Positions 1,438-47,263 of a DNA stretch of 64,000 nt are shown here, piece by piece. Made by a program: the position numbers and the translations under genes. The stretch's first letter is position 1, and each line of letters opens with the position of its first letter. The notes under the pieces were generated by a model. The model saw only the letters and a program-made list of their open reading frames with translations. It ran no database searches and was not told where the DNA came from. Source of the DNA: Roseivivax isoporae LMG 25204. Lineage in GTDB: Bacteria; Pseudomonadota; Alphaproteobacteria; Rhodobacterales; Rhodobacteraceae. Where the stretch lies: positions 62,001 to 126,000 of the forward strand of contig NZ_JAME01000009.1 of assembly GCF_000521865.1 (NCBI RefSeq), written 5' to 3'.

Positions 1438-3627
1438 ATGGAGTCGATCATCCTCTTCGCCCCGCTGGCGGGCGCCATCATCGCGGGCTTCTTCTGGAAG
1501 CTGACGGGCATCCGCGGCGCCCAGTGGATCACCACGGGCCTGCTGTTCCTCGCGTGCGCGTTCTCGTGGATCGTGTTCTTCACCCACGGTCCGGAAACCC
1601 AGCACATCCAGGTGCTGCGCTGGATCGAGAGCGGATCGCTGTCGACCGACTGGTCGATCCGGCTCGACCGGCTGACCTCGATCATGCTGATCGTCGTGAC
1701 CACGGTCTCGGCGCTCGTGCACCTCTACAGCTTCGGCTACATGGCCCATGACGAGAACTTCCGCGAGGGCGAGGAAAGCTACAAGCCGCGCTTCTTCGCG
1801 TACCTGTCGTTCTTCACCTTCGCCATGCTCATGCTGGTGACCGCCGACAACCTCGTGCAGCTCTTCTTCGGTTGGGAGGGCGTGGGCGTCGCATCCTACC
1901 TGCTTATCGGCTTCTACTACCGCAAGCCCTCGGCCAACGCCGCGGCGATGAAGGCCTTCGTGGTCAACCGGGTGGGCGATTTCGGCCTCGCGCTCGGGAT
2001 CTTCGCGCTGTTCTTCCTGGTCGACTCGATCCGCTTCGACGACGTCTTCGCCGCCGCGCCGCAGATCGCCGAGACGCAGATGACCTTCCTCTGGATGGAG
2101 GTGAACGCGGCCGAGCTGATCTCGATCCTGCTGTTCATCGGCGCCATGGGCAAATCGGCGCAGCTCCTGCTGCACACCTGGCTGCCCGACGCCATGGAAG
2201 GCCCGACGCCCGTCTCCGCGCTGATCCACGCGGCGACCATGGTGACGGCGGGCGTGTTCCTCGTATGCCGCATGTCGCCGCTGATGGAATTCGCGCCGAA
2301 CGCGCTGGCCTTCGTGACCTTCCTCGGCGCAACGACCGCGTTCTTCGCGGCGACCGTCGGCCTCGTGCAGAACGACATCAAGCGCGTGATCGCCTATTCG
2401 ACCTGCTCGCAGCTCGGCTACATGTTCGTGGCCGCCGGCGTGGGCGTCTACTCGGTCGCCATGTTCCACCTCTTCACGCACGCCTTCTTCAAGGCGATGC
2501 TGTTCCTCGGGGCGGGCTCGGTCATCCACGGCATGCACCACGAGCAGGACATGCGGAACTATGGCGGCCTGCGCCACAAGATGCCCTACACCTTCTGGGC
2601 CATGATGATCGGCACGCTCGCCATCACCGGCGTCGGCATCCCGCTCACCCATATCGGCTTTGCCGGCTTCCTGTCGAAGGACGCGGTGATCGAGAGCGCG
2701 TGGGCCGGCACCGCGGGCGGCTACGCCTTCTGGATGCTGGTGATCGCGGCGCTGTTCACGAGCTTCTACAGCTGGCGGCTGATGTTCCTGACCTTCTTCG
2801 GCACGCCGCGCGGCAACAAGCACACGCACGAGCACGCCCACGAAAGCCCGAAGGTCATGCTGATCCCGCTGGGCGTCCTGTCCATCGGCGCGGTCTTCGC
2901 CGGCATGATCTGGTACGGGTCGTTCTTCGGCGAAAGCGACAAGGTCGCGCGGTTCTTCGCGATCCCGGCCGCCGAGGATGCGCACGGCACCGAGGGCGGG
3001 CACGATGAAGCCGCGGCCGAAGGTGGCCACGCGGACGGCGAGGGTGTGGCCGAGGCCGCCGAGGAGGCCGCCCAGGGCGACCTCGAGGGCGCGGGCGAGG
3101 CCATCACCACCACCGAGGGCACGGGCGACAGCCCGAGCGCGGAGGGTCACCACTTCGCCTTCGGCGGCGCGCCGGGCGACGGTGCGATCTACATCGGTCC
3201 CGAGAACCACACGCTCGACGACGCGCACGAGAGCCCGGTCTGGGTGAAGGTGTCGCCGTTCATCGCCATGCTGATCGGGTTCGCCGTGTCGTACCTGTTC
3301 TACATCGTGAACCCGTCCCTGCCGAAGCGGCTCGCCGAGACGCAGCGCCCGCTGTACCTGTTCCTGCTGAACAAGTGGTATTTCGACGAGGCCTACGACT
3401 TCCTGTTCGTCCAGCCGGCCAAGAGCGTCGGGCGGATGTTCTGGCGTCGCGGCGACGGGGACGTGATCGACGGGTCGATCAACGGTGTCGCCATGGGGAT
3501 CATTCCCTTCTTCACGCGCCTCGCGGGCCGGGCGCAGTCTGGATACATCTTCACCTACGCCTTCGCGATGGTGATCGGGATCGCGGTTCTCATCACCTGG
3601 ATGAGCTTCACCGGAGGAGCGCGGTAA
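1438..3627 (+). CDS. nuoL: NADH-quinone oxidoreductase subunit L
   Basis: Distal Mrp-type antiporter subunit of complex I (ND5). It spans 729 residues, longer than the roughly 610 of E. coli NuoL. The conserved core is clear: [20 protein letters not shown] with the key Glu near residue 145, the [20 protein letters not shown] segment and the [20 protein letters not shown] segment with the proton-path lysines. Residues about 510-590 are a low-complexity, acidic and His/Gly/Ala-rich insertion before the last membrane segments and the lateral amphipathic helix. The stop shares one base with the nuoM start (TAATG). Confidence 0.97.
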
Positions 3628-5192
3628 TGGACAACCTGCTTTCCATCGTCACGTTCCTGCCGGCACTGGCCGCGCTGATCCTCGGCGTCTTCCTCAAGGG
3701 GGGCGACGCCGCGGCGGACCGCAACGCGCGCTGGCTCGCGCTCATCGCGACGTCGGCGACGTTCCTGATCTCGCTCTTCATCCTGGCGCAGTTCGACCCG
3801 GCCAATCCCGGCTTCCAGATGGTGGAAGAGGGCGAATGGCTGCTCGGCATGACCTACAAGCTGGGCGTCGACGGCATCTCTGTGCTGTTCGTGATGCTGA
3901 CCACCTTCATCATGCCGCTGGTGATCGCGGCGAGCTGGGAGGTGAAGGACCGCGTCAAGGAATACATGATCGCGTTCCTGCTGCTCGAGACGCTCATGCT
4001 GGGCGTGTTCATGGCGCTCGACATCGTGCTGTTCTACCTCTTCTTCGAGGGCGGCCTGATCCCGATGTTCCTGATCATCGGCATCTGGGGCGGCAAGAAC
4101 CGCATCTACGCGGCGTTCAAGTTCTTCCTCTACACCTTCCTCGGGTCCGTCCTGATGCTGGTCGCGCTCGTGGCGATGTATGCCGATGCGGGCACCACCG
4201 ACATCCCGACGCTGCTCAACCACGAGTTCGCGTTCGAGAGCTTCAGCCTCCTCGGCATCCAGGTGATCGGCGGCTTCCAGACGCTGCTGTTCCTCGCCTT
4301 CTTCGCCTCGTTCGCGGTGAAGATGCCCATGTGGCCGGTGCACACCTGGCTTCCGGACGCGCACGTGCAGGCGCCGACGGCGGGCTCGGTGGTGCTGGCC
4401 TCGATCCTGCTGAAGCTCGGCGGCTACGGTTTCCTGCGCTTCAACCTGCCGATGTTCCCGGTGGGCTCCGAGGTCGTGGGGCCGCTGGTCCTGTGGCTGT
4501 CGGCCATCGCCATCGTCTACACGAGCCTCGTGGCGCTCGTGCAGGAGGACATGAAGAAGCTCATCGCCTACTCGTCGGTCGCCCACATGGGCTACGTGAC
4601 CATGGGCATCTTCGCGGCCAACCAGCAGGGCGTCGACGGCGCGATCTTCCAGATGCTGTCGCACGGCTTCATCTCGGGCGCGCTGTTCCTCTGCGTGGGC
4701 GTGATCTACGACCGGATGCACACCCGCGAGATCGACGCCTATGGCGGGCTCGTGAACCGGATGCCGGCCTACGCGCTCGTCTTCATGCTGTTCACCATGG
4801 CGAATGTCGGGCTGCCCGGCACGTCGGGCTTCATCGGCGAGTTCCTGACGCTCATGGGCGTGTTCCAGGTGAACACCTGGATCGCGGTCCTCGCGACCTC
4901 GGGCGTGATCCTGTCCGCCGCCTACGCGCTCTGGCTCTACCGCCGGGTGGTGATGGGCGATCTGGTCAAGGAATCCCTGCGCACCATCACCGACATGTCG
5001 CGGCGCGAGCGCGCGATCTTCGCGCCGCTGGCCGTGATGACCATCTGGCTCGGCATCTACCCGGCGCCCATCCTCGACCGCATCGGCCCCTCGGTCGAGG
5101 CCCTGCTCGAGACCTATGACGACCGCGTCGCGGCCGCCGACCTCGCCGGTCCGCGGGTCGCCGAGGCTCCGGCCGCAGCCGCAGACCATTGA
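3627..5192 (+). CDS. nuoM: NADH-quinone oxidoreductase subunit M
   Basis: Second Mrp-type antiporter subunit of complex I (ND4), 521 residues. The ATG at 3627 overlaps the nuoL stop and follows a GGAGGAG ribosome site inside nuoL. The protein starts [19 protein letters not shown]. Diagnostic segments are present: [20 protein letters not shown] with the membrane Glu, [20 protein letters not shown], and [20 protein letters not shown]. The Ala-rich tail after about residue 495 is poorly conserved. Confidence 0.97.
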
Positions 5193-5205
5193 GGACGTGA
5201 CCCCC

Positions 5206-6648
5206 ATGCTTTCTGCCGACCTCACCCTCATCCTTCCCGAGATCCTCCTGTCGGTCTACGCGATGCTCGCGCTGATCGGGGCGGTCTACACCGGCAAGGA
5301 CCAGCTCGCGCGGCCGCTGATCTGGCTCACCTCGGCGCTGTTCGTGGCGTTCGCGGTCTGGATCGCCACCTCGCGCGGCGGCACCGCCAACGCGTTCGGC
5401 GGCATGTTCGTCGTGGACGGCTTCGCGCGCTTCGCCAAGGTGACGATCCTCGTCTCGGCCGCCGCCGTGCTCGCCATGAGCGAGGAGTACATGGCGCGCC
5501 GCGGGCTCCTGCGGTTCGAATACCCGATCCTCGTGGCGCTCGCCGCGGTCGGCATGATGGTCATGGTGTCCGCGGGCGACCTGATCGCGCTCTACATGGG
5601 TCTCGAGCTGCAGTCGCTGGCGCTCTACGTGGTCGCGTCGCTGCGGCGCGACAGCGCGCGCTCGACCGAGGCGGGGCTCAAGTATTTCGTGCTGGGCGCG
5701 CTCAGCTCGGGCCTCCTCCTCTACGGCGCGTCGCTGACCTACGGTTATGCCGGCACGACGCTCTTCTCGGGCATCCTTGCCGCGGCGGGCGAGGGCACGG
5801 TGTCGCTGGGGCTCCTCTTCGGGCTCGTGTTCCTGACCTCGGGCATCGCGTTCAAGGTCTCGGCCGTGCCGTTCCACATGTGGACGCCCGACGTCTACGA
5901 GGGCGCGCCGACGCCCATCACCGCCTTCTTCGCGACGGCGCCGAAGGTCGCGGCCATGGGGCTCTTCGCGCGGCTCCTGCACGACGCGTTCGGGGGCGTG
6001 ACCGGCGACTGGAAGCAGATCGTCGCGTTCCTGTCGCTCCTGTCCATGTTCCTCGGCTCCATCGCCGCGATCGGGCAGACCAACATCAAGCGGCTGATGG
6101 CCTACTCGTCCATCGCCCACATGGGCTACGCGCTCATGGGGCTCGCCGCGGGAACGGCACTCGGGGTGCAGGCGCTGCTCATCTACATGGCTATCTACGT
6201 GACCATGAACGTGGGCACCTTCGCCTTCATCCTGTCGATGGAGCGCGACGGCCAGCCGGTCACCGACATCGCCTCGCTCAACATGTATTCGCGGACCGAA
6301 CCCGGAAAGGCGCTGGCCATGCTGGTGCTGCTCTTCTCGCTCGCCGGCGTGCCGCCGCTCGTGGGCTTCTTCGGCAAGCTCTACGTGCTGCGCGCGGCCT
6401 ATGACGGCGGCCTCGCCTGGCTGGCGCTTGCCGGCGTGATCGCGAGCGTGATCGGTGCCTACTACTACCTGCGCATCGTGTTCCTGATGTATTTCGGGTC
6501 GGAACGCGACGACCGGCTCGATGCCGGCGGGTCGGGCGTGCTGTGGCTGTTCCTGGCGGTGCCGGCCATCGCCATGGTCGCGGGCGTGGTGAACCTCTTC
6601 GGGATCGAGGGCGCGGCGGCGGCCGCGGCGGCGTCGCTTGTCAACTGA
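5206..6648 (+). CDS. nuoN: NADH-quinone oxidoreductase subunit N
   Basis: Third antiporter-like subunit of complex I (ND2), last gene of the nuo operon. The ATG at 5206 is chosen because the protein then starts [19 protein letters not shown], as NuoN proteins do; the frame is open further upstream only inside nuoM. The 480 residues match the family. Conserved parts: [40 protein letters not shown] and [21 protein letters not shown] stable hairpin follows at 6675-6699. Confidence 0.97.
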
Positions 6649-6674
6649 CGCCCGCGCGGCGTCCCCGTCGGTGA

Positions 6675-6733
6675 CCGCGCCTGCGTGCCGCAGGCGCGGG
6701 GCTTCCGGCGGGGATATTTCCGCCAAGAAGAAG
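6675..6733 (+). repeat. Intergenic hairpin plus GATATTT element between nuoN and birA
   Basis: Positions 6675-6685 (CCGCGCCTGCG) and 6689-6699 (CGCAGGCGCGG) form a perfect 11-bp stem with a TGC loop. Only GGCTTCC follows, so it is at best a weak terminator or a 3'-end stabiliser. From 6706 comes GGCGGGGATATTTCCGCC, itself partly palindromic, then AAGAAGAAG. From memory, this GGGATATTT..AAGAAGAAG pattern recurs between genes in Rhodobacteraceae genomes. It occurs once in this window, so the repeat status cannot be shown here. Confidence 0.45.
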
Positions 6734-6756
6734 CCCGCAGGTCCGGGGAGGATCGC

Positions 6757-7503
6757 GTGAGCTGGCCGCAGGGCTACGGCCTCGTCACGCTCGAAAGCGT
6801 TGACAGCACCATGGCCGAGGCGGCGCGGCGCCTGCCCGAGGCGCGGGGGCCGTTGTGGATCTTCGCGGGGGTGCAGACCGCGGCGCGCGGGCGGCGGGGC
6901 CGGCCCTGGGCCAATCCCCCCGGCAACCTCGCGGCGACACTGCTGATGCCCATGGCCGAGCCGCCGGGCGTCGCGGCCCTGCGGTCCTTCGTGGCGTCGT
7001 TGGCGCTTCTCGACGCCTTCGTGGGCGTGACCGGGCGGGCGGAGCCCTTCGCGCTGAAGTGGCCGAACGACGTGCTCCTGAACGGGGGCAAGGTGGCGGG
7101 CATCCTGCTCGAGACCCTCGGGGGGCGCGGGGCGGCGTCGCACCTCGCCATCGGGATCGGCGTGAACCTCGCCGCGGCGCCGGCCGCGGAGGCGGTCGAG
7201 CCCCGGGCCCTGCGACCAACGGCGCTCGGTCCTGAGACGGGCGTGGTGGTCGATCCCGTGGACTTCCTCGGCGCGCTGGCCGCCGCCTATGCCCGGCGCG
7301 AGGCCGAGTTCGCGGCCCTCGGATTCGCCCCGGTGCGCACGGCGTGGCTTGCCGCGGCCGCGCGGATCGGCGAGGCGGTGACGGCGCGCACGGGCACGTC
7401 CGAGACCACGGGCACGTTCGAGACGGTGGACCCGTCCGGCAATCTTGTCCTAAGGACGCCACGGGGCCGCGTCGCCATCGCCGCGGCCGACATCTTCTTC
7501 TGA
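6757..7503 (+). CDS. birA: Biotin--[acetyl-CoA carboxylase] ligase
   Basis: Activates biotin with ATP and attaches it to carboxylase carrier domains. The likely clients are the acetyl-CoA carboxylase carrier and PccA, encoded at 35945. A GTG at 6757 is chosen because GGGGAGGA sits 5 bases upstream and the protein then begins with the catalytic domain (LVTLESVDSTMAEAARR). Signature segments: AARGRRGRPWANPPGNLAAT for biotinyl-AMP binding and KWPNDVLLNGGKVAGILLE. At 248 residues there is no N-terminal helix-turn-helix domain, so this is a monofunctional ligase rather than a BirA repressor. Confidence 0.93.
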   Translation: MSWPQGYGLVTLESVDSTMAEAARRLPEARGPLWIFAGVQTAARGRRGRPWANPPGNLAATLLMPMAEPPGVAALRSFVASLALLDAFVGVTGRAEPFALKWPNDVLLNGGKVAGILLETLGGRGAASHLAIGIGVNLAAAPAAEAVEPRALRPTALGPETGVVVDPVDFLGALAAAYARREAEFAALGFAPVRTAWLAAAARIGEAVTARTGTSETTGTFETVDPSGNLVLRTPRGRVAIAAADIFF

Positions 7504-7516
7504 CGGGGGCCGCGCC

Positions 7517-8284
7517 ATGCTGCTAGCCATCGATTGCGGCAACACCAACACCGTCTTCTCGATCTGGGACGGCGAGAGTTTCCTCGCGACCTGGCGCACG
7601 TCGACCGAACACCAGCGCACGGCGGACCAGTACTATGTCTGGCTCTCGACGCTGATGAAGCTGCGCGGGATCGACGCCGAGATCACCGACGTGATCGTGT
7701 CCTCGACCGTGCCGCGCGTGGTGTTCAACCTGCGGGTGCTCGCCGACCGGTATTTCGGAACCCGCGCGATGGTGGTCGGCCGGCCGGATTGCGCGCTGCC
7801 CGTGGACGTGCGCGTCGACGCGGGCACGCAGGTCGGGCCCGACCGGCTGGTCAACACGGTGGCGGGCTTCGACCTCTATGGCGGGGACCTCATCGTCGTG
7901 GATTTCGGCACGGCCACCACATTCGACGTGGTGGATGCCGACGGCGCCTATGTGGGCGGCGTGATCGCCCCCGGCGTGAACCTGTCGCTGCAGGCGCTGC
8001 ACGAGGCGGCGGCGGCGCTGCCGCACGTGGACATCTCGCGGCCGCAGACGGTCGTCGGCACCAACACCGTCGCCTGCATGCAGTCGGGCATCTTCTGGGG
8101 ATATGTGGGTCTCGTCCGCGAGATCTGCGCACGGATCAAGGCCGAGCGGGATCGGCCCATGAAAATCATCTCGACCGGCGGGCTGGCGCCGCTCTTCCAG
8201 CAGACCGAAGCACTGTTCGACGACTTCAAGGACGACCTGACGATGCACGGACTGACCGTCATCTACAGCCACAACAAGACATAA
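7517..8284 (+). CDS. coaX: Type III pantothenate kinase
   Basis: Catalyses the ATP-dependent first step of coenzyme A synthesis. The 255-residue protein has the acetate/sugar kinase-hsp70-actin fold marks of CoaX: AIDCGNTNTVFSIWDG at the N-terminus (phosphate 1), VGPDRLVNTVAG in the middle and VDFGTATTFDVVDADG (phosphate 2). It sits 13 bases after birA and 13 before rnj. This birA-coaX-rnj order behind the nuo genes is common in alphaproteobacteria. Confidence 0.95.
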   Translation: MLLAIDCGNTNTVFSIWDGESFLATWRTSTEHQRTADQYYVWLSTLMKLRGIDAEITDVIVSSTVPRVVFNLRVLADRYFGTRAMVVGRPDCALPVDVRVDAGTQVGPDRLVNTVAGFDLYGGDLIVVDFGTATTFDVVDADGAYVGGVIAPGVNLSLQALHEAAAALPHVDISRPQTVVGTNTVACMQSGIFWGYVGLVREICARIKAERDRPMKIISTGGLAPLFQQTEALFDDFKDDLTMHGLTVIYSHNKT

Positions 8285-8297
8285 GGACATCCACCAC

Positions 8298-9965
8298 ATG
8301 AGCGGTGAACGCATCATCTACCTGCCCCTGGGCGGGGCGGGTGAAATCGGCATGAACTGTTACGTCTACGGCTACGGCCGGCCGGGCGAGGAGGAGCTGA
8401 TCGTCGTCGACATCGGCGTGACCTTCCCGGACATGGAGACGACGCCGGGTGTCGATCTCATCTTTCCCGACATCACCTGGCTGAAGGAGCGGCGGGACCG
8501 CATCCGCGGCATCTTCGTCACCCACGCGCACGAGGACCACGTGGGCGCGGTCGCGCATCACTGGCAGGCGCTCGGCGCGCCCGTCTACGCGCGCGCCTTC
8601 ACCGCCAATATCGCGCGGCGCAAGTTCGAGGAGCAGGGCCTGCCGGTCGAGACGGTGCGCACCGTCTCGGCCTGGCCCGAAACGGTGGACGCGGGTCCCT
8701 TCACCGTGGGCTTCGCGCCGATCTCGCATTCGATCCCAGAGAGTTCCGGCCTCGTCATCGACGTGGGCGGCGAGCGGCTCGTGCATTCGGGCGACTTCAA
8801 GATCGACGTGACGCCGGTCGTGGGCGAACCCTTCGACCGCGAGATGTGGTCGGAGATCGGCAAGCGCGGCGTGCGGGCGCTGATCTGCGATTCGACCAAC
8901 GTCTTCTCGACCCACGAGGGGCGGTCCGAGGCCACGGTCGGCCCGGAGATCGAGAAGCTCCTGTCGGAATCGAAGAGCCTCGTGGTCGCCACGACCTTCG
9001 CCTCGAACGTCGCGCGGCTCAAGACGCTGGCCGAGGCCGGGCGCAATGCCGGGCGGTCCATCGTGCTGCTCGGCCGCGCCATGCGGCGGATGATCGAGGC
9101 CGCCGTCGAGACCGGCGTGCTCAAGGACTTCCCCACTACCGTGCCGGTGGAGGAAGCTGGGTCGATCCCGCGCGAGAACCTGATGCTGCTCGTGACCGGC
9201 AGCCAGGGCGAGCGGCGGGCGGCGTCGGCGCAGCTGGCCCGTGGCAAGCACCACGGCATCGAGCTGGCGGACGGCGACCTCTTCCTGTTCTCGTCGAAGA
9301 CCATTCCCGGCAACGAGAAGCCGGTGATCCGCATCATGAACATGCTCTCGGAGAAGGGCGTCGACGTGGTGGACGACAGCAGCGGGCGCTACCACGTCTC
9401 GGGCCACGCCAACCGGCCGGACCTCGAGGCGATGCACGAGATCCTCGATCCCGCGGTCGTCGTTCCGAACCACGGCGAGCACCGCCACCTGCGCGAGCAC
9501 GTCAAGCTGGCGCAGTCGCGCGGTCGCAAGGGCATGCTGGCGGTCAACGGGACGATGATCTCGCTCTCGGGCAACGCGCCCGAGGTCGTTGACTATGTGG
9601 AGACCGGGCGCACCTATCTCGACGGGTCGGTGCAGGTCGGCGCGATGGACGGCGTGATCCGCGACCGCATCCGCATGGCGCTGAACGGGCATGCCACGGT
9701 GACGCTGGTTCTCGACGAGGACGACGAGGCGCTCGGCGATCCTTGGGTCGACACGATGGGCCTGCCCGAGACAGGGCGTTCGCGCCAGCCGGTGATCGAG
9801 GTGCTGGAGGAAGCGCTCGCCGCCGCGATGACCCGCGCCGGCAAGAAGACCCTGCGCGACGACGATGCGCTCGAGGAGACGCTGCGGCGCGCGCTGCGCA
9901 ACGCCGCGCAGGACGAGATCGGCCGCAAGCCCGAGGTGACGGTGGTGATCAGCCGCCTGACCTGA
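8298..9965 (+). CDS. rnj: Ribonuclease J
   Basis: Metallo-beta-lactamase/beta-CASP nuclease of 555 residues with 5'-3' exonuclease and endonuclease activity in mRNA turnover and rRNA maturation. The zinc motif HAHEDH is at residues 76-81. Other marks are the phosphate-pocket/metal histidine segment around ISHSIPESSG, HSGDFKID, and the beta-CASP end motif with SGHANRPDLEAMHEIL and VPNHGEHRHL. The C-terminal domain is complete. It is the last gene of the rightward run, facing a minus-strand gene across a hairpin. Confidence 0.95.
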   Translation: MSGERIIYLPLGGAGEIGMNCYVYGYGRPGEEELIVVDIGVTFPDMETTPGVDLIFPDITWLKERRDRIRGIFVTHAHEDHVGAVAHHWQALGAPVYARAFTANIARRKFEEQGLPVETVRTVSAWPETVDAGPFTVGFAPISHSIPESSGLVIDVGGERLVHSGDFKIDVTPVVGEPFDREMWSEIGKRGVRALICDSTNVFSTHEGRSEATVGPEIEKLLSESKSLVVATTFASNVARLKTLAEAGRNAGRSIVLLGRAMRRMIEAAVETGVLKDFPTTVPVEEAGSIPRENLMLLVTGSQGERRAASAQLARGKHHGIELADGDLFLFSSKTIPGNEKPVIRIMNMLSEKGVDVVDDSSGRYHVSGHANRPDLEAMHEILDPAVVVPNHGEHRHLREHVKLAQSRGRKGMLAVNGTMISLSGNAPEVVDYVETGRTYLDGSVQVGAMDGVIRDRIRMALNGHATVTLVLDEDDEALGDPWVDTMGLPETGRSRQPVIEVLEEALAAAMTRAGKKTLRDDDALEETLRRALRNAAQDEIGRKPEVTVVISRLT

Positions 9966-22649: not shown

Positions 22650-23951
22650 TCACGCAGCGGCGCGGTGGGCCTTGGTGAGAGCCTGATCGAGGTCGCGGAT
22701 CAGGTCGTCGGCATCCTCGATCCCGATCGAGATGCGCACGACGTCGGGCGCGGCACCGGCCGCCTTCTGCTGTTCGGGGGTGAGCTGCCGGTGCGTGGTC
22801 GAGGCCGAATGGATGATGAGCGACCGCGTGTCGCCGAGATTGGCCACGTGGCTGAAGAGCTCGAGCCCGTCGACCAGCCGCACGCAGGCGTCGTACCCGC
22901 CCTTGAGCGTCACGGTGAAGAGCCCGCCCGCGCCCTTGGGGCAGATCCGCGCGACCCGGTCGTGCCACGGGGAGGAGGGAAGGCCCGCATAGGTCACCGC
23001 CGCCACGGCCTCGTGTCCCTCAAGCCAGGCCGCGATCTTCTCGGCGTTCTCCACGTGCTTGCGCATACGCAGCGACAGCGTCTCGATCCCCATGAGCGTG
23101 TAGTGCGCGGCCTGGGGGTTCAGCGTCATGCCGAGGTCGCGCAGACCGACCGCGATGCCGTGGAAGGTGAAGGCCAGCGGCCCGAACGTCTCGTGGAACT
23201 TGAGACCGTGATAGGCGGGCTCGGGCGCGCTGAGCGAGGGGAACTTGTCCGAGGCCGACCAGTCGAACGTGCCCGCATCGACCACGCAGCCGCCGGTGAC
23301 GGTGCCGTTGCCGGTCAGGAACTTGGTCATCGAATGCACGACGAGCGTCGCGCCGTGCTCGATCGGGCGGCAGAGATACGGCGTGGCCGAGGTGTTGTCG
23401 ACGATGAGCGGCAGGCCCGCCTCGGCGGCGACCTTCGCGGCCGCGTCCAGGTCGGTGACGTAGCCGCCCGGGTTCGCGATCGATTCGCAGAAGATCGCCC
23501 GCGTGTCCTCGTCGATGGCCGCCTTGACCGCGTCCATGTCGTCGAAGTCGACGAAGGTCGCGCGCCAGCCGAAACGGTGGATGGTGTTCGAGAACTGCGT
23601 GACCGACCCGCCGTAGAGCCGGGTCGAGACGACGATATTGCGCCCCGGTCCCATGAGCGGGAAGAGCGCCATGATCTGCGCCGCGTGCCCGGACGAGCAG
23701 CAGACCGCGCCGGCGCCGCCCTCGAGCGTCGCCATGCGCTCCTGCAGGACCGCCACGGTGGGGTTGGTGAGCCGCGAGTAGATGAAACCCACTTCCTGCA
23801 GGTTGAAAAGCGCCGCCGCGTGCTCGGCGTCGCGGAAGACGTAGGCGGTGGTCTGGTAGATCGGTGTCTGGCGCGCGCCGGTGGCCGGGTCGGGCCGGCT
23901 GCCGGCATGGATCTGCAACGTGTCGAAGCCGTAGCGCGGAGTATCGGTCAT
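22650..23951 (-). CDS. metY: O-acetylhomoserine sulfhydrylase/aminocarboxypropyltransferase
   Basis: PLP enzyme making homocysteine (or methionine) from O-acetylhomoserine and sulfide (or methanethiol). The 433 residues match MetY rather than the shorter cystathionine enzymes, which have about 390. Features: [13 protein letters not shown] at the start, [23 protein letters not shown]-phosphate region SSGHAAQ, and Lys210 in [16 protein letters not shown] as the Schiff-base lysine. Cytosolic. Only about 70 bases separate its start from the next minus-strand gene; I saw no SAM-II riboswitch pattern there. Confidence 0.92.
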
Positions 23952-39562: not shown

Positions 39563-41657
39563 AAAGGAACTCAAGGGCCGTTCCGCCGACACGCTGACGT
39601 GGAAGACGCTCGAGGGCATCGACATCAAGCCCCTCTACACCGCCGAGGACGTGCAGGACCTGCCGCATCTCGGGTCGCTGCCGGGGCTCGAGCCCTTCAC
39701 CCGCGGCGTCAAGGCGACCATGTATGCCGGCAGGCCTTGGACCATCCGGCAATACGCGGGCTTTTCCACCGCGGAGGAATCGAACCGCTTCTACCGGCGC
39801 GCGCTCGAGGCCGGGCAGCAGGGCGTGTCGGTGGCCTTCGACCTCGCGACGCATCGCGGCTACGACAGCGACCATCCGCGCGTGGTGGGCGATGTGGGCA
39901 AGGCCGGTGTCGCCATCGATTCGGTCGAGGACATGAAGGTGCTGTTCGACGGCATCCCGCTCGACCGCGTGTCCGTGTCGATGACCATGAACGGTGCGGT
40001 GATCCCTGTGCTCGCGAATTTCATCGTGACCGGAGAGGAGCAGGGCCATGACAGGAGCCTGCTGTCCGGGACCATACAGAACGACATCCTGAAGGAGTTC
40101 ATGGTCCGCAACACCTACATCTATCCGCCCGAGCCCTCGATGCGGATCGTCGCGGACATCATCGAGTACACCTCGGACCACATGCCGAAGTTCAACTCGA
40201 TCTCGATCTCCGGCTACCACATGCAGGAGGCGGGCGCGAACCTGGTGCAGGAACTCGCCTTCACGCTCGCCGACGGCAAGGAATACGTGCAGGCGGCCGT
40301 GGCGCGCGGCATGGACATCGACCGCTTCGCTGGCCGGCTGTCCTTCTTCTTCGCCATCGGCAAGAACTTCTTCATGGAGGCGGCCAAGCTGCGGGCGGCG
40401 CGCATGCTCTGGCACCGGATCATGACCGATCTCGGCGCCAAGAACCCGCGCTCGAAGATGCTGCGCACGCATTGCCAGACCTCGGGCGTGAGCCTGGCGG
40501 AACAGGACCCCTACAACAACGTCATCCGCACCGCCTACGAGGCCATGTCGGCGGTCCTCGGCGGGACCCAGTCGCTGCACACCAACGCGCTCGACGAGGC
40601 GATGGCGCTGCCGACCGACTTCTCCGCCCGGATCGCGCGCAACACCCAGCTCATCCTGCAGGAAGAGACCGGCGTGACGAAGGTCGTCGACCCGCTGGCG
40701 GGCTCCTACTACGTCGAGCGGCTGACCCACGACCTGGCAGAGGCCGCCTGGACGCTGATCGAGGAGGTCGACGGCATGGGCGGCATGACCAAGGCCGTGG
40801 CCTCGGGCATGCCCAAGCTCAGGATCGAGGAGGCCGCGGCCACGCGGCAGGCCAAGATCGACCGCGGCGAGGACGTGATCGTCGGTGTGAACCGGTACCG
40901 CCTCAAGCAGGAGGAGGAGCTCAACATCCTCGACATCGACACCGCCAAGGTGCGCGAGGCGCAGGTCGCGGCGCTGGAGCGCATCCGCGCGGGCCGCAAC
41001 GCGGCAGCATGCGAGACGGCCCTGGCCGAGGTGGAGCGTGCGGCGAAGGAGGGTGGCAACCTCTTGGCCGCCGCGGTCGAGGCGGCGCGCGCCCGCGCCA
41101 GCGTGGGAGAGATCAGCATGGCGATGGAAAAGGTGTTCGGCCGCCACCGGGCAGAGGTCAAGACGCTCGCCGGCGTCTACGGTGCGGCCTACGAGGGCGA
41201 CGAGGGCTTTGCCGCGATCCAGAAGGCGGTCGAGGCCTTTGCCGAGGAAGAGGGCCGCCGCCCGCGCATGCTGGTGGTCAAGATGGGCCAGGACGGTCAC
41301 GACCGCGGCGCCAAGGTGATCGCAACGGCCTTTGCCGACATCGGCTTCGACGTGGACGTGGGCCCGCTGTTCCAGACGCCAGAGGAGGCCGCGCAGGACG
41401 CCATCGACAACGACGTGCACGTGGTGGGGATCTCGAGCCAGGCGGCGGGCCACAAGACGCTCGCGCCGCAGCTCGTGCAGGCGCTCAAGGACCAGGGTGC
41501 GGGAGAGATCCTCGTGATCTGCGGCGGCGTGATCCCGCAGCAGGACTACGCCTTTCTCCGGGAGGCTGGGGTCAAGGCGATCTTCGGACCCGGCACCAAC
41601 ATCCCAGATGCGGCGCAGGACATCCTGCGCCTGATCCGCGAGGCGCGTGCGGCCTGA
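39525..41657 (+). CDS. scpA: Methylmalonyl-CoA mutase
   Basis: Adenosylcobalamin enzyme rearranging (R)-methylmalonyl-CoA to succinyl-CoA, so propionyl-CoA carbon enters the citric acid cycle. One 710-residue chain: substrate barrel ([78 protein letters not shown]) and C-terminal B12 domain ([18 protein letters not shown] with the cobalt-ligand His at about 592). The single-chain form with both domains suggests a homodimer. Methylmalonyl-CoA epimerase is not in the window. Confidence 0.97.
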
Positions 41658-41676
41658 GCCGCCGCGCGCCCCGCGT

Positions 41677-41703
41677 CACCGCGGCCGTCAGGCGGCCGCG
41701 GTG
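41677..41703. terminator. Convergent terminator between scpA and ggpS
   Basis: CACCGCGGCCG pairs perfectly over 11 bp with CGGCCGCGGTG, loop TCAGG, between the convergent scpA (ends 41657) and ggpS (ends 41688). It overlaps the last codons of ggpS. No T run, so it would work in both directions but weakly. Confidence 0.55.
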
Positions 41704-43202
41704 CCGTCCTTCGACGCGTCCTTGCCGAAATCCTTGGGCGACAGCAGCGCCAGCTGATCGCGCGCCCAGGCACGGGTGTTGTGCTTCTCGACCACCCGGC
41801 GCAGTTCGGCCATGCGGTCGCGGCGCTCGGCCTCGGGCATGGCAAGCGCCATCTCGATCGCGTGCAGCATGGACTTGTTGGAATAGGGGTTGGTCAGGAC
41901 CGCCGACGACATCTCCATCGCCGCGCCCGCGAATTCCGACAGGATCAGCACGCCGTCGCCGTCGGTGCGCGCCGCCGCGAATTCCTTGCAGACGAGGTTC
42001 ATGCCGTCGGCAAGCGGAGTGATCCACGCCACGTCGGCCGCGCGGTAATAGGCCACGAGTTCCTCGAACGGGATCGCGTTCGAGATGAGCGAGACCGGCG
42101 TGCGGTCGAAGGTGGCGAAGCGGCCGTTGATGCGGCCCGCGATCTGCTCGATCTCCGACTGGATCTCGGCATAGGCGGTCATGTTGCGGTTGGCCGACAC
42201 CGAGATGTGCAGAAGCTTGGTCTGCGACGCGAGCTCGGGATTGCGCTCGAGCAGCCGCTCGAAGGTCAGGAGCTGTTCGGCGCCGCCCTTGGTGTAGTCG
42301 GTCCGCCCGACCGACAGGATCAGCCGCCGGTTGGCCATGGCCGCCAGCACCTCGTCCCGGCGCACGTCGGTCTCGGGGCGCGCGGCGACCTCGGCGATGT
42401 AATCGGTGTCGACGCCGACGGGCGTGGTGCCGAGCCGCACGACGCGGTCCTCGGTGTGGATGGCGGTGGGCACCGTCCGGTCCGACAGGGCCGAGCCGTC
42501 AGAGATGAAGTCGGGATCGACCTTCTCGCGCGGGACGTTGCCCACGTCGCGCAGCGACCGCACGACGGAGACGAAGTTCGCCGCGTAGCGCGGGATGTGG
42601 AACCCGACCACGTCGCAGGCGAGCAGCGAATCGACGATCTCCCCACGCCAGGGCAGCACGTTGAACATGTCGGCCGCCGGGAACGGCGTGTGATGGTAGA
42701 ACGAGATCCGCACGTCGGCCCGCATCTGCCGCAGGTAGCCGGGCACCAGCCACAGGTTGTAGTCGTGCACCCAGACCGCCGCGCCCTGCGCCGCTTCCGC
42801 GGCGGCGGCCTCGGCGAACGCCCAGTTCACCTCCTTGAAGGTCGGCCAGTCGACGGGATCGTAATTGTACTTTTCCTTGAACCCGTGGAGGATCGGCCAG
42901 AACGCCTCCTTCGACGTCACGTGATAGAAGCTCGACACCTGCGCCTTGGTCAGCGGCAGGCGCGACACGGTGTACTTGCCGAAGCTGTCCTCGATCTGGA
43001 TCACCCGCTCGAACCCCGGGTTCGAGGTGTCCTCGGCTTCCTTCCAGGCGACCCAGGCGGCGTCGTCGACCTTGCCGAAGAAGCTCTTGAGCGTGGGAAC
43101 GATGCCGTTCGGGCTCTTGTTCTCCTTGAAGACGATCTTGCCGTCTTCCTCGACCTCCTCGTAGGGCTGGCGGTGATAGACGATGACGAGATCGCTGCTC
43201 AT
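41688..43202 (-). CDS. ggpS: Glucosylglycerol-phosphate synthase
   Basis: Retaining GT20 enzyme joining glucose (from ADP-glucose in cyanobacteria) to glycerol 3-phosphate. The 504-residue protein resembles cyanobacterial GgpS more than OtsA: it starts with [20 protein letters not shown], then [48 protein letters not shown] and [17 protein letters not shown]. The OtsA-type donor motif region is [10 protein letters not shown], with [18 protein letters not shown] near the end. It overlaps the phosphatase gene by four bases, and gpsA, which makes its acceptor, precedes both. Trehalose-phosphate synthase is the alternative, less likely. Confidence 0.9.
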
Positions 43203-43969
43203 TCCTGGGCTCCTTCGGGCAGGGGGTGCATGTTCCGCTTGGCCACGGCCTCGAGGATGCCGGCCGCGCCGATGCCCGAGGCCACATGCACGTGAGCTAG
43301 CCCGGACACCCGGTCGAGCAATGCCTGCTCGGACCCGCCGACCGCCACCGCGGGCAGGCCCGCCTCGAGCATCGACAGGTCGTTGAGCGTGTCGCCCGCG
43401 GCCAGCACGCGGTCCTCGGAGATGCCGTGATGCGCCACGAAGCGGCGCAGCGACGGCCCCTTGGACACGCCCCGCGGCAGTACGTCGAAGAACCGGTTGT
43501 CCGAGATCAGCGCGTCGAGGCCCATCTCGCGCACCATGTCCACGGCGCTGTCGTCGAAGGCATGTGGATCGAGGTCGAAACTGACGCGGTAGCGGAACTC
43601 GGTCGGCTGGAGCGTGAGGCCCGGATGGCCGTCGAGCGCCGCGCGCACCCGCGCGCCGGCATCTCCCCAGGCACGCGCGATCTCGTCCTCGAGTTCGGGG
43701 ATCGGCTCGACCCGGCCGCCGTCGATGCGCGCGATGGTCGTGCCCACGTCGCCGATGGCGTATTCCGGCCAGGGCACGCCGCCGTCGCAGAGTTCGGCGA
43801 TGAAGGCCGGGTCGCGGCCGGTGACGAAGACGAGCCCGATGGTCGCGCGGTTGTCCTCGATCCAGTCGTAGAGCCGGCGGCGGTCGGCGTCGCTGCCGCC
43901 GAGGAAGGTTCCGTCGAGATCGGTGGCAAGCACGAAGTCTTTCTGCGCCAGCGGCGCGTCCTTGGTCAT
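43199..43969 (-). CDS. HAD phosphatase, probable glucosylglycerol-phosphate phosphatase
   Basis: Cof/sucrose-phosphatase-like HAD hydrolase of 256 residues. Motif I is ATDLDGTFLGG (nucleophile Asp17, acid Asp19), motif II is VFVTGRDPAFIAEL, and motif IV is LAAGDTLNDLSMLEAGLP, with Lys in RGVSKGPSLRRF as motif III. Cap-type segments resemble sucrose-phosphate phosphatase and the HAD part of fused GgpPS proteins. It lies between gpsA (13 bases upstream) and ggpS (ATGA overlap), so it should remove the phosphate from glucosylglycerol phosphate. The substrate is inferred from context. Confidence 0.83.
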   Translation of the reverse strand: MTKDAPLAQKDFVLATDLDGTFLGGSDADRRRLYDWIEDNRATIGLVFVTGRDPAFIAELCDGGVPWPEYAIGDVGTTIARIDGGRVEPIPELEDEIARAWGDAGARVRAALDGHPGLTLQPTEFRYRVSFDLDPHAFDDSAVDMVREMGLDALISDNRFFDVLPRGVSKGPSLRRFVAHHGISEDRVLAAGDTLNDLSMLEAGLPAVAVGGSEQALLDRVSGLAHVHVASGIGAAGILEAVAKRNMHPLPEGAQE

Positions 43970-43982
43970 CGGGATGTGGTCC

Positions 43983-45128
43983 TCAACTGGTCTTCTGAAG
44001 GGCGGCGGGATGCGCAAGCTCGATGTCGAGCGCGCGCGGCTCGGATTCGATGGGCCGGGCCCAGAGTTCGGTGAAGGTGCGCGACAGGTTCGCGCCGTCG
44101 TAGAGGATGGCGTGCACCGCCTCGCAGATGGGCATCTCGACGCCGATCCGGCGGGCGAGGTCGACGACGGAGGCCGCCGAGATCTCCCCCTCAACCACCA
44201 CGTTGCGGCCGCCGAAACATTCCGCGCGGGTCTTGCCCTCGCCGAGCTGCACGCCAAGCGACATGTTGCGCGAGGTGAGCGAGGAACAGGTCAGCGTCAG
44301 GTCGCCCGCGCCCGAGAGGCCGGTCACCGTCTCGCGCTTGCCGCCGAGCGCCTCGGCGAGGATCTTCATCTCGTCGATGCCGCGGGTGATGAGCGCCGCG
44401 CGCGTGTTCTCGGCGAATCCCGCGCCGGTCATCATCCCGCAGGCGATGGCGACCACGTTCTTGACCGCGCCGCCGATCTCGACGCCCACGAGGTCGTCCG
44501 ACATGTAGGGGCGGAAGGAATGGGAGCTCATCGACACCGACAGCCGCGCCGCGGGGCTTTCGCCCGGGTCCAGCCGGTCGGTGTAGCGGAACTCGAAGGC
44601 GATGGTCGCCGCGGTGGGATGCCCGAGCGCGGTCTCGCGCGCGAAGGTGGGACCGGACAGCGCGCCGATCGGGTGGCCCGGCAGCTCTTCCTCGAGCACG
44701 TGGCTCAGGAGGTAGCCGGTGCCGCGCTCGATCCCCTTGCAGCACAGGACGAGCGGCACGCCGGAGTCGAGATGCGGCTTCAGCGCCGCGCACATCTCGC
44801 GCAGCGAACTCGACGGCGTGACGATCAGCACGGCGTCCGCGCCGCCTACCGCCGCACCGAGATCGGACGTCGGCACGATACCGTCGGGCAGCGGCGTGTC
44901 GGGCAGGTAGTCGGGGTTCTGGCCGGTGCTGCGGATCGTCTCGGCGAGCTCAGGCCGGCGTCCCCAGAGATGCGCGATCCGGCCTGCCTTGGCGGCCACG
45001 GCGGCGAGGGCTGTCCCCCAGCTGCCCATGCCGAGGACCGCGATGCGGTCGTAGGGGCGGGCGTAGACGATGCCGGGCCGTCGCGGGGAGGGGTTCTGAT
45101 CCGGGAGTTTCAGGGCGTGTCCGTCCAT
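43983..45128 (-). CDS. gpsA: NAD(P)-dependent glycerol-3-phosphate dehydrogenase
   Basis: Reduces dihydroxyacetone phosphate to sn-glycerol 3-phosphate. Nucleotide motif IAVLGMGSWGTALAAVAAK, then VLCCKGIERGTGYLLSHV, LSGPTFARE, KNVVAIACGMMTGAGFAENT with the catalytic Lys, and LSGAGDLTLTCSS. All are canonical. At 381 residues it is about 40 longer than common GpsA. About 28 residues precede the first strand (MDGHALKLPDQNPSPRRPGI..), with no better start in frame except internal Met. In this operon its product is the acceptor for GgpS, besides phospholipid synthesis. Confidence 0.94.
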   Translation of the reverse strand: MDGHALKLPDQNPSPRRPGIVYARPYDRIAVLGMGSWGTALAAVAAKAGRIAHLWGRRPELAETIRSTGQNPDYLPDTPLPDGIVPTSDLGAAVGGADAVLIVTPSSSLREMCAALKPHLDSGVPLVLCCKGIERGTGYLLSHVLEEELPGHPIGALSGPTFARETALGHPTAATIAFEFRYTDRLDPGESPAARLSVSMSSHSFRPYMSDDLVGVEIGGAVKNVVAIACGMMTGAGFAENTRAALITRGIDEMKILAEALGGKRETVTGLSGAGDLTLTCSSLTSRNMSLGVQLGEGKTRAECFGGRNVVVEGEISAASVVDLARRIGVEMPICEAVHAILYDGANLSRTFTELWARPIESEPRALDIELAHPAALQKTS

Positions 45129-45588
45129 GTCGAGAATGTCCGCAGCGTCGTGCAGCGGCGACGCAGGGTCAAGCGGTACGGGTCAGCGATGCTGCAACTG
45201 CGCAAGAGCTAGGCATTGCTGCCCGTTTGTCGAGTTTTCGCGCGAATACAACCGTGTCTGCCTGGCGTCGGCTTCGGGCGAGGCGCGTACAGCGCAACAT
45301 TTGAGCACTTTCCGCGCCTTTTGCATGCCGTTTGGGCAGGGAGGCGCCGAAAACATGCTGCACTGCGCCAAAAACCGCTGTCAACAGGTTCGCGCGCCCC
45401 TTGGTAAACGAGGGGGTGAGCATCCGCATGTGGTTGATTTCATTACATCTGAACGGCGTGTGAAAAGCCGTAACACCGGCGGGAACTTCCGCGCCTCACG
45501 CATGTTTTGACACGTGCGAGGGCTGCTTTAACCTCGCTGTGTGCCGCACCGCGGCATCGCACAACGCCCCGAGTCAAGGAGCCGACTG
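45129..45588. other. Divergent intergenic region between gpsA and galU
   Basis: A 460-base region without a credible gene, A/T-richer than the surroundings especially near 45430-45470. It must hold the promoters of the leftward gpsA-phosphatase-ggpS operon and of galU. A perfect TTGACA lies at 45507-45512 toward galU, but the matching -10 (TTTAAC at 45527-45532) has a short 14-base spacer. I see no obvious repeat or riboswitch. Confidence 0.5.
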
Positions 45589-46497
45589 ATGCAAGAGAAG
45601 ACCGATCGCAACCTGCCGAATGTTCGCACCGCGATCTTTCCAGTTGCGGGTCTCGGCACGCGCTTCCTGCCTGCCACCAAGTCGACCCCGAAAGAGCTTC
45701 TTCCGGTGCTCGACCGCCCGCTGATCCAGTTCGCCATCGACGAGGCGCGCGCGGCCGGCATCGAGCGCATGATCTTCGTGAGCCATCCGTCCAAGGACGC
45801 GATCGAGCGGTATGTCCGCGAGGACGTCGACCTCGAGGAGACGCTGCGCGCGAAGGGCAAGGACGCCCTCGCCGACATGCTGCACGACAACGCGCTCTGC
45901 GAAGGCTCGGTCGACGTGCGCTTCGTGATGCAGCCCGAGCCGCTGGGTTTGGGCCATGCGGTGCTCTGCGCCGCGGACGAGGTCCTGCCGGGCCCGGTGG
46001 CCGTGATCCTGCCCGACGATCTGATCCTCGGCGAGCCCGGCTGCCTGAGCGAGATGATCGCGGCCTACGACCCGGTCAAGGCGGGCCACATGGTCGCGAC
46101 CATGCAGGTCGAGGCGGAAGCGGTCAAAAGCTACGGCGTCCTGTCCGTCACCGGCCGCGACGGCGCGCTGATCCTGTCCGACGGCATGGTCGAGAAGCCC
46201 GATCCGGCCGACGCGCCTTCGCGCCAGGCCGTGGTCGGCCGCTACGTGCTCGACGGCACGATCTTCGACGACCTGCGAGGCCTCCCGCCCGGCGCGGGCG
46301 GCGAAATCCAGCTGACCGACGCCATCGCGCGCGGCGTGGGCACGGTGGGCCTGTGCGGCTTCCGGTTCACCGGCACGCGCTACGATTGCGGATCCAAGAA
46401 GGGAATGCTGCAGGCGACGATCGCCTATGCCGGCCAGCACCCCGAGTTCCGCGAGACGCTGGCCACCTCGAACGCGGGCATGCTTGCCGCCGAATGA
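45589..46497 (+). CDS. galU: UTP--glucose-1-phosphate uridylyltransferase
   Basis: Makes UDP-glucose from UTP and glucose 1-phosphate. The ATG at 45589 is chosen over an upstream GTG because AAGGAG lies 7 bases before it. 302 residues. Signature loop GLGTRFLPATKSTPKE, then LPVLDRPLIQFAIDEA, EPLGLGHAVLCA, ILPDDLILGEPGCL and YDCGSKKGMLQA. It is transcribed away from the glucosylglycerol operon and ends at a hairpin. Confidence 0.96.
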   Translation: MQEKTDRNLPNVRTAIFPVAGLGTRFLPATKSTPKELLPVLDRPLIQFAIDEARAAGIERMIFVSHPSKDAIERYVREDVDLEETLRAKGKDALADMLHDNALCEGSVDVRFVMQPEPLGLGHAVLCAADEVLPGPVAVILPDDLILGEPGCLSEMIAAYDPVKAGHMVATMQVEAEAVKSYGVLSVTGRDGALILSDGMVEKPDPADAPSRQAVVGRYVLDGTIFDDLRGLPPGAGGEIQLTDAIARGVGTVGLCGFRFTGTRYDCGSKKGMLQATIAYAGQHPEFRETLATSNAGMLAAE

Positions 46498-46555: not shown

Positions 46556-47263
46556 TCAGTCGTTCGACACGACCAGCCGCAGGTAGGGGACCGGCCCCGC
46601 GGCCGCCGGCGCGTGCAGGAAGGGCCGGGCGGGCTCCGACAGTCCGCGCTGGGGCGCGACGCCGGTGTCCGCATGGCCACGCGGGGCGTCGAGCGCCGGC
46701 AGCTGCAGGCCCTGCGGCGCCACCCGCCCATGGGTCGCATGCGCGACCTCGAACCGCCGCGGCGCACGGCCGAGCTGCCCGTGCGAGACAAGCCCGCCCA
46801 AGGCCCGGTCGATGCGTCCGGTATCCGAGCGCAGCGGCAGCAGGATCAGGTCGGCCGCCAGCGGCGGGTTGCGCAGCCGCCGTTCCGGCGCGAGGTCGAG
46901 CCGCAGCGTCTCGGGCCCCGCGAAGACGCGCTCGAGCGCCTCGGCCAGCGCGTCGCGGCTCGGCGGGGCGATGAAGGCCGAAAGCGGCAGACCTGCCGCC
47001 TCCATGCCCATGAGGTCGGACAGGTGCGTGCCGCTCACGCGCAGCCGGACGATGCCGCGCCCGATCCGCTCGGCGAGAAAGGCATGCGACAGCGCGTCCT
47101 GCATGCCGCGGGGGTCGACCTGGTCGCGGAACGGCACGTCGCCGCACTGGTCGGCCAGCGCCCGCCAATAGGTCTCGATCATGCGCAGCGGCGCCTGGCG
47201 CCGCTCACGCTCGCGCTCGGACATCGACACGACCCCCGACCCCCTCACGTCCTTCCCGAACAT
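46556..47263 (-). CDS. PAS_5-family PAS-domain protein
   Basis: 235 residues. One PAS-like domain of the alphaproteobacterial PAS_5 type, about residues 25-175: MIETYWRALADQCGDVPFRD, VDPRGMQDALSHAFLAERIG, RGIVRLRVSGTHLSDLMGME, PERRLRNPPLAADLILLPLR. No output domain is attached, so it may act as a free sensor or partner. The remaining tail is Pro/Ala/Gly-rich and poorly conserved. The start at 47263 has GAGAGGA seven bases before it. A perfect CtrA-type box lies 66 bases upstream of the start codon, which suggests cell-cycle or CtrA control. Confidence 0.8.
   Translation of the reverse strand: MFGKDVRGSGVVSMSERERERRQAPLRMIETYWRALADQCGDVPFRDQVDPRGMQDALSHAFLAERIGRGIVRLRVSGTHLSDLMGMEAAGLPLSAFIAPPSRDALAEALERVFAGPETLRLDLAPERRLRNPPLAADLILLPLRSDTGRIDRALGGLVSHGQLGRAPRRFEVAHATHGRVAPQGLQLPALDAPRGHADTGVAPQRGLSEPARPFLHAPAAAGPVPYLRLVVSND

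Follow-up and report, generated by a model that had tools for sequence, protein, structure and literature searches.

The 64,000-nucleotide stretch of Roseivivax isoporae LMG 25204 analysed here (contig NZ_JAME01000009.1, positions 62,001 to 126,000), referred to below as the window, contains a compact operon of three genes, gpsA, a HAD phosphatase gene and ggpS, which very likely directs synthesis of the osmolyte glucosylglycerol, and a galU paralogue, here named galU2, that diverges from it (Table 1). The genome from which it comes is 4.9 Mb in size and 99.85% complete. A preliminary description of this stretch had placed three tightly spaced minus-strand genes next to a divergent galU, and both the coordinates and the spacing are borne out: gpsA is separated by 13 bp from the HAD gene, the stop codon of which overlaps the start of ggpS by 4 bp, the two being separate open reading frames. 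The distance between gpsA and galU2 is 460 bp when the start of galU2 is set at 45589. A GTG at 45541, upstream of this ATG, is an alternative start, but the ATG is the better choice because it is preceded by CAAGGAG, which is exact in five of seven aligned sequences (window included).

Table 1. Genes and other features of the ggpS locus, with window coordinates
Feature	Position	Strand	Basis
ggpS, glucosylglycerol-phosphate synthase (GT20), 504 aa	41688..43202	-	TIGR02398 match; outside OtsA clade
HAD-IIB (S6PP-type) phosphatase, predicted glucosylglycerol 3-phosphate phosphatase, 256 aa	43199..43969	-	Pfam S6PP; HAD motifs
gpsA, NAD(P)H-dependent glycerol-3-phosphate dehydrogenase, operon-type clade, 381 aa	43983..45128	-	NF000942; sole PF01210 match above cut-off
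Divergent intergenic region gpsA/galU2, 460 bp	45129..45588		Layout; 7-sequence alignment
Inverted repeat TGCCGC-N3-GCGGCA 5' of galU2, possible operator	45542..45556		Exact in window
galU2, specialised GalU paralogue divergent from operon, 302 aa	45589..46497	+	Profile score; tree; linkage

Comparison with related loci proved informative about which of these genes belong together. Among the best 80 of at least 544 relatives in GTDB genomes, the closest are Roseivivax species, and the synthase of R. halodurans is 90% identical to that of the window. Within this set the HAD gene lies directly upstream of ggpS in all 78 loci with enough sequence, gpsA lies directly upstream of the HAD gene in 70 of 77, and a divergent galU more than 60% identical to that of the window is present in 40 of 75, so the gene arrangement is not due to chance. 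A survey of 120 family genomes, each at least 95% complete and one per genus, found ggpS at 60% identity or more in 20. Operon-type gpsA, for which at most 16 first-look candidates were scored per genome, was likewise found in 20 at 57% identity or more, the next match being at 46%. The two genes occur together in 18 genomes and are adjacent in every one of them; G032 and G060 have ggpS without operon-type gpsA, and G037 and G110 have operon-type gpsA without ggpS. The three-gene cassette is also found in two other alphaproteobacterial families (G165, G181), and the same three genes are carried on plasmids of Tistrella, Dinoroseobacter and Falsirhodobacter. Across the phylum a TIGR02398 match above cut-off occurs in 7 of 299 genomes. 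A glucosylglycerol transporter was not seen as a constant partner: only at locus L236 (G165) is the operon followed by a set of ABC transporter genes. The ABC transporter matches at other loci are weaker (27-45% identity), almost always concern just the ATPase, and were not taken to be orthologues. A separate case is G070 (L211, about 3500-8400), which enters neither count, where broken pieces of ggpS and gpsA stand beside an apparently open HAD gene, followed downstream by a gene read from its sequence as glgP (glycogen phosphorylase). This locus is read as a dying operon copy beside a glycogen gene.

The identity of the synthase was examined with profile models, a tree and substrate-contact residues. 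It scores 665.7 bits on TIGR02398, the GgpS equivalog model (cut-off 569), and 406.8 bits on TIGR02400, the OtsA model, the cut-off of which (564.85) it does not pass. A quick tree of 45 proteins, comprising 33 GgpS rows (31 free and 2 fused) and 12 OtsA rows, separates the GgpS from the OtsA rows with a Shimodaira-Hasegawa-like approximate likelihood ratio test (SH-aLRT) value of 100; among the GgpS rows, the 31 free sequences group together (99), as do the two fused ones (97). In OtsA of M. thermoresistibile, Arg324 is described as the sole C-domain contact to glucose 6-phosphate (PMC6879718). All 12 OtsA rows have R at the equivalent position, against N or A in all 33 GgpS rows (N338 in the window); across 56 ggpS genomes the position holds N, D or A. 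Arg18, Tyr90 and Asp144 (OtsA numbering) are kept in all rows of both kinds. Of the donor-contacting residues defined in the same report (PMC6879718), His168, Arg286, Lys291, Asp385 and Glu393 are kept throughout the GgpS and OtsA rows, while Arg365 is conserved in all 12 OtsA rows but replaced by F or L in all 33 GgpS rows (F in the window). The predicted acceptor of the window synthase is glycerol 3-phosphate, to which N338 and the linkage of gpsA point indirectly. These results uphold the earlier assignment of the protein as GgpS and not OtsA, and the phylogeny that had been proposed as its check, with GgpS, fused GgpPS and OtsA, did not place it inside the OtsA clade. The further suggestion that it resembles cyanobacterial GgpS stands as far as the TIGR02398 cut-off is passed, and on that model only; the tree contained no cyanobacterial GgpS row.

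The partner phosphatase gives 127.3 bits on Pfam S6PP (PF05116; cut-off 20.3), its best match in the PDB is the sucrose phosphatase 1s2o, and the four HAD motifs are present. G335 (locus L234) has a fused enzyme of 752 aa whose N-terminal half is this same S6PP domain, and in G315 (locus L235) phosphatase and synthase are fused too, both fusions having 0 stops. The window protein is 36-39% identical to the phosphatase domains of these two enzymes. The view of a free, sucrose-phosphatase-like enzyme that is fused to its synthase elsewhere therefore holds. In G165 (L236) the HAD and ggpS genes are in separate frames, despite a long open frame. Two further observations concern these loci: at L239 (G152; 4686-5328) the HAD match beside ggpS is split over two frames, by a frameshift or a sequencing error, and at L234 a 420-aa MFS transporter-like protein (7540-8802) adjoins the fused ggpPS on the same strand.

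Of particular interest is the gpsA gene. Its product scores 371 bits on NF000942 (cut-off 257) and carries the N and C domains of NAD_Gly3P_dh, and it is the only PF01210 match above cut-off in the genome, two others falling below. Operon-type and housekeeping GpsA form separate clades in a quick tree (41 and 34 rows, respectively; SH-aLRT 99), and the outermost operon-type rows (G181, G165) are likewise linked to ggpS. PF01210 was applied again, with all candidates scored, to 28 genomes, namely the 20 operon-type carriers and 8 without a match. A second, housekeeping gpsA is present in 12 of the 20 carriers, that of G044 being split into weak pieces by PF01210 and reaching 150.5 bits as a protein match. 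The remaining eight (G000, G037, G071, G088, G093, G102, G110, G131) have no second full-strength gpsA, further matches in them being at or below 25.0 bits. In another set of 30 ggpS genomes, 24 have operon-type gpsA, nine of these without a further full-strength match, and all six that lack the operon type have the housekeeping copy.

The usual order of genes at the housekeeping locus is tsaD-gpsA-yciI-EVE. In all 11 sole-copy genomes examined, the window genome among them (17 such genomes are known), gpsA is missing from the slot beside tsaD; yciI was not found in two of these loci, nor EVE in one. The usual order is intact in three of four genomes with a housekeeping copy, the fourth, G089, having only a weak tsaD match and being uninformative. 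When the gpsA state is mapped on the operon-type tree it changes eight times, at least four of the changes being forced by well-supported branches; the state is known for 29 of the 41 rows (14 sole, 15 both), and the protein tree may differ from the species tree. The genome states used in these comparisons (gpsA, glgC and galU2) were compiled by hand from search results. Since the operon gpsA is the sole recognisable copy in the window genome, it presumably serves phospholipid synthesis as well and so could not just be shut down when salt is low. The earlier idea that gpsA in the operon puts acceptor supply under the same control calls for revision: in this genome the gene is no extra copy reserved for the osmolyte, and its co-regulation with ggpS is presumed.

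One result cautions against reading too much into a sole copy. Among 100 family genomes without operon-type gpsA, eight have no full-strength gpsA match at all; the contrast with the eight of 20 carriers that have no other gpsA gives a Fisher p of 0.0008, uncorrected for kinship. The supply of glycerol 3-phosphate must therefore have other solutions, and a sole copy is no proof of essentiality. Six genomes (G043, G046, G079, G082, G085 and G122; loci L254, L259, L245, L255, L240 and L249) have no full-strength gpsA match and retain the tsaD-yciI/EVE cluster without gpsA, and G048 and G116 have neither a gpsA nor a tsaD match.

The galU2 protein does not pass the cut-off of the GalU equivalog model TIGR01099 (266.8 against 326.8 bits), whereas the ordinary second galU of the genome does (334.3 bits). 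At 65% identity or more, galU2 occurs in five of the 120 family genomes (G000, G089, G104, G095 and G092), in each of which it adjoins the operon, 460-610 bp from gpsA, and an ordinary galU at about 50% identity lies elsewhere; all other matches in the 120 genomes are at 55% or below. G020 and G092 have identical coordinates and are probably one genome. The galU2 paralogues (33 rows) group together in a quick tree (SH-aLRT 92, with long-branch warnings). Identical rows were omitted from it, as were loci with even numbers below L036 and two rows that were 28% identical. The closest outsider is a galU in G036 that lies upstream of an otsA homologue, joined through a long branch. The segments GLGTRFLPATK, LGLGHAV, LPDD, EKP and DCGSK, which we take to be nucleotidyltransferase motifs of GalU, are common to galU2 and the ordinary copies in the alignment. 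On profile score, grouping and linkage, galU2 is a specialised GalU paralogue, and that it was found in the 120 genomes nowhere but beside the operon weakens the view that galU is a chance housekeeping neighbour.

The intergenic region between gpsA and galU2 has a mean column identity of 45% over the seven aligned sequences and is best conserved near galU2. The inverted repeat is recognisable in six of the seven (window included), one of them changed on both arms, and is a possible candidate operator; by itself it is not significant because, allowing one mismatch, there are 3 matches in the window against 1.57 expected. Promoter and terminator scans over 41500-45700 found no site. G036 (contig C54; L198, L284) offers another example of a galU close to a GT20 gene: its galU paralogue (79393-80202) lies upstream of the otsA homologue (81152-82318) on the same strand.

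The divergent galU had raised the question whether this GgpS uses UDP-glucose instead of ADP-glucose, and the distribution of glycogen genes bears on it. With searches at E <= 1e-30 for glgC and E <= 1e-20 for glgA, glgC was not detected in 13 of 56 ggpS genomes (55 if G020 and G092 are the same) and is present in the other 43. In 12 of the 13, with G335 the exception, glgA was likewise not detected, and it was found in all seven glgC-positive controls. Ten of the 13 are alphaproteobacterial; G315, another of the 13, is only 71% complete. No stop codon interrupts the GgpS and HAD matches of any of the ten alphaproteobacterial genomes, and G029, G181 and the fused enzyme of G335 each lack one HAD motif as the pattern was written. 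Because operons are kept where neither glgC nor glgA is detectable, dependence on ADP-glucose made by GlgC is unlikely and UDP-glucose is the simplest donor. The GgpS clade is probably independent of GlgC-made ADP-glucose, and use of UDP-glucose, alone or as the preferred donor, has in our judgement a chance a little over one half. The glgC-free genomes may yet have another source of ADP-glucose. The original question has thus gained strength from the confinement of galU2 to the operon in the 120 genomes and from operons without glgC and glgA, the use of UDP-glucose itself being a prediction.

Several observations count against UDP-glucose. Completeness is 98-100% in six of the ten glgC-free alphaproteobacterial genomes and is not given for G017, G024, G028 and G029, and the window genome itself has both glgC and glgA. 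Three donor-pocket positions have been reported to switch OtsA between an ADP type (L/V/E) and a UDP type (I/F/L) (PMC6879718). The window has I/I/E, one position UDP-like and two nearer to ADP-like, most relatives have V/I/(E or D), and the pocket is alike in glgC-positive genomes, glgC-negative genomes and fused GgpPS. Nor is galU2 enriched where glgC is missing, being present in three of the ten glgC-free alphaproteobacterial genomes (G017, G028 and G029) against 23 of the 43 with glgC, and 15 of the 20 ggpS-bearing family genomes have no galU2. A strain that does have galU2, with neither glgC nor glgA found, is Yoonia vestfoldensis DSM 16212. The Synechocystis GgpS, furthermore, reportedly requires ADP-glucose and does not accept UDP-glucose (PMC6004087).

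Taken together, the evidence suggests an alphaproteobacterial glucosylglycerol cassette with its own substrate supply, a probable UDP-glucose donor and a gpsA that replaces the housekeeping copy, a reading to which we give a probability of roughly 0.57. GpsA would reduce dihydroxyacetone phosphate to sn-glycerol 3-phosphate, GgpS would transfer glucose to it from a nucleotide sugar, and the free HAD phosphatase would remove the phosphate and release glucosylglycerol. In a subset of Rhodobacterales that includes the window genome, galU2 would most likely supply UDP-glucose as donor. The GgpS clade would then probably have departed from the ADP-glucose dependence of the cyanobacterial enzyme, and in the window genome the cassette gpsA would have taken over from a housekeeping gpsA since lost. 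A broader statement, in which alphaproteobacterial GgpS depends on UDP-glucose, with a GalU paralogue to support it in some lineages, and in which cassette gpsA displaced the housekeeping gene repeatedly and outlasted ggpS in two genomes, is held more tentatively and falls somewhat short of even odds.

The alternatives overlap in part, and the weights given to them are not meant to sum to one. The most serious concerns the donor: GgpS may take either nucleotide sugar according to the supply of the cell, galU2 only raising flux in some lineages. In its favour, the pocket is the same whether or not a genome has glgC or galU2, and several donors are known for OtsA enzymes (PMC6879718, PMC5247666), but the single cyanobacterial enzyme for which a test is cited is strict (PMC6004087). 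We consider a dual donor a real possibility, though with a chance not far above one in three. Somewhat less favoured, though still a serious rival, is that GgpS uses ADP-glucose made by GlgC as in cyanobacteria, galU2 providing exopolysaccharide or lipopolysaccharide precursors or having some other role. The glycogen genes of the window genome, the 43 of 56 ggpS genomes with glgC, the strictness of the Synechocystis enzyme (PMC6004087), the pocket positions 363 and 367, which are nearer the ADP type, and the 15 of 20 family genomes with ggpS that lack galU2 all accord with it; the ten alphaproteobacterial genomes that keep the operon with no glgC or glgA detected do not, nor does galU2 never having been found away from the operon in 120 genomes.

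Two other alternatives carry less weight. It might be supposed that the operon gpsA is merely a relocated housekeeping gene whose proximity to ggpS has no meaning for the pathway, as it is the only gpsA of the window genome and G037 and G110 keep the operon type without ggpS. The operon type is one clade, however, with linkage to ggpS even in its outermost rows, and a second, housekeeping gene persists in 12 of the 20 carriers, which makes relocation improbable. Least probable of all, and hardly credible on present comparisons, is a product other than glucosylglycerol, such as trehalose 6-phosphate or another glucoside. The GT20 family does include OtsA and VldE, and the best solved relatives of the synthase are OtsA structures. 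Yet the OtsA cut-off is missed, the protein lies outside the OtsA clade, its acceptor arginine is replaced, gpsA accompanies the pair in 70 of 77 loci, and elsewhere the genome encodes a distinct OtsA homologue with 35% identity to the synthase. On these grounds the reading as a trehalose synthase was rejected.

The preferred reading, a cassette with its own substrate supply, describes a known pathway in variant form, and its interest lies in the probable switch of donor and in the replacement of gpsA, both of them unproven. As in Synechocystis, where GgpS and GgpP (StpA) are encoded separately, the window has distinct synthase and phosphatase genes, and its synthase lies above the TIGR02398 cut-off. 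It differs in that gpsA and the HAD gene are directly upstream of ggpS, in a donor that is possibly not ADP-glucose, and in its S6PP-type phosphatase; a GgpP/StpA model exists in NCBIfam and is not among the 17 NCBIfam matches of this protein. Heterotrophs such as Stenotrophomonas, Pseudomonas, Azotobacter and Marinobacter are reported to have the fused GgpPS (PMC10873239). It shares with the window the order S6PP then GT20, and in the tree the fused enzymes of L234 and L235 form the sister group of the free rows, whereas the window genes are free and have gpsA upstream. At L234 the 13 kb surrounding the fused gene contain no gpsA match, and the upstream side of L235 cannot be seen because this locus starts at a contig end. 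With the OtsA/OtsB system the window synthase has in common the GT20 family and most donor-site residues; it differs in clade, in the replaced acceptor arginine, in the change of Arg365 to F and in its partner genes. Dinoroseobacter shibae pDSHI02 and a Falsirhodobacter algicola plasmid have the same three genes in the same order with the synthase annotated ggpS; unlike the window locus these are on plasmids and have no galU2 match within the stretch examined.

Finding gpsA near ggpS has a precedent, since a figure legend on cyanobacteria includes gpsA among the genes drawn for ggpS/gghA co-localisation (PMC6753628). In Stenotrophomonas rhizophila the fused ggpPS gene (also called ggpS) and an MFS transporter gene are reported to rise under salt (PMC3653106). 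For Rhodobacteraceae, an osmolyte-gene survey that covers phototrophs and their relatives, Roseivivax included, treats ectoine and betaine; in the sections available it does not assign glucosylglycerol synthesis to Roseivivax or other members of the family (PMC7824335). Our literature search, the coverage of which left out most subscription journals and extended to parts of the sources, found no account of this operon. Glucosylglycerol is known mainly from cyanobacteria, where ADP-glucose is the donor, and from fused enzymes in some heterotrophs. If the reading is correct, free enzymes with their own acceptor supply and UDP-glucose would uncouple synthesis of the osmolyte from glycogen metabolism, the list of marine glucosylglycerol producers would widen, and osmolyte and membrane-lipid synthesis would share one dehydrogenase, the enzyme of a metabolic cassette appearing to replace a housekeeping gene.

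Two features of the surrounding sequence may be added. ARAGORN reports a 67-nt tRNA-Ala(ggc) at 23841-23907 (+), which is probably spurious because Rfam, at gathering thresholds, finds no RNA anywhere in the 64-kb window. Convergent with galU2, at 46556-47263 (-), is the gene of a PAS_5-domain protein, a homologue of which adjoins galU2 in 21 loci of Roseivivax, Puniceibacterium, Thalassococcus, Salipiger and Alloyangia.

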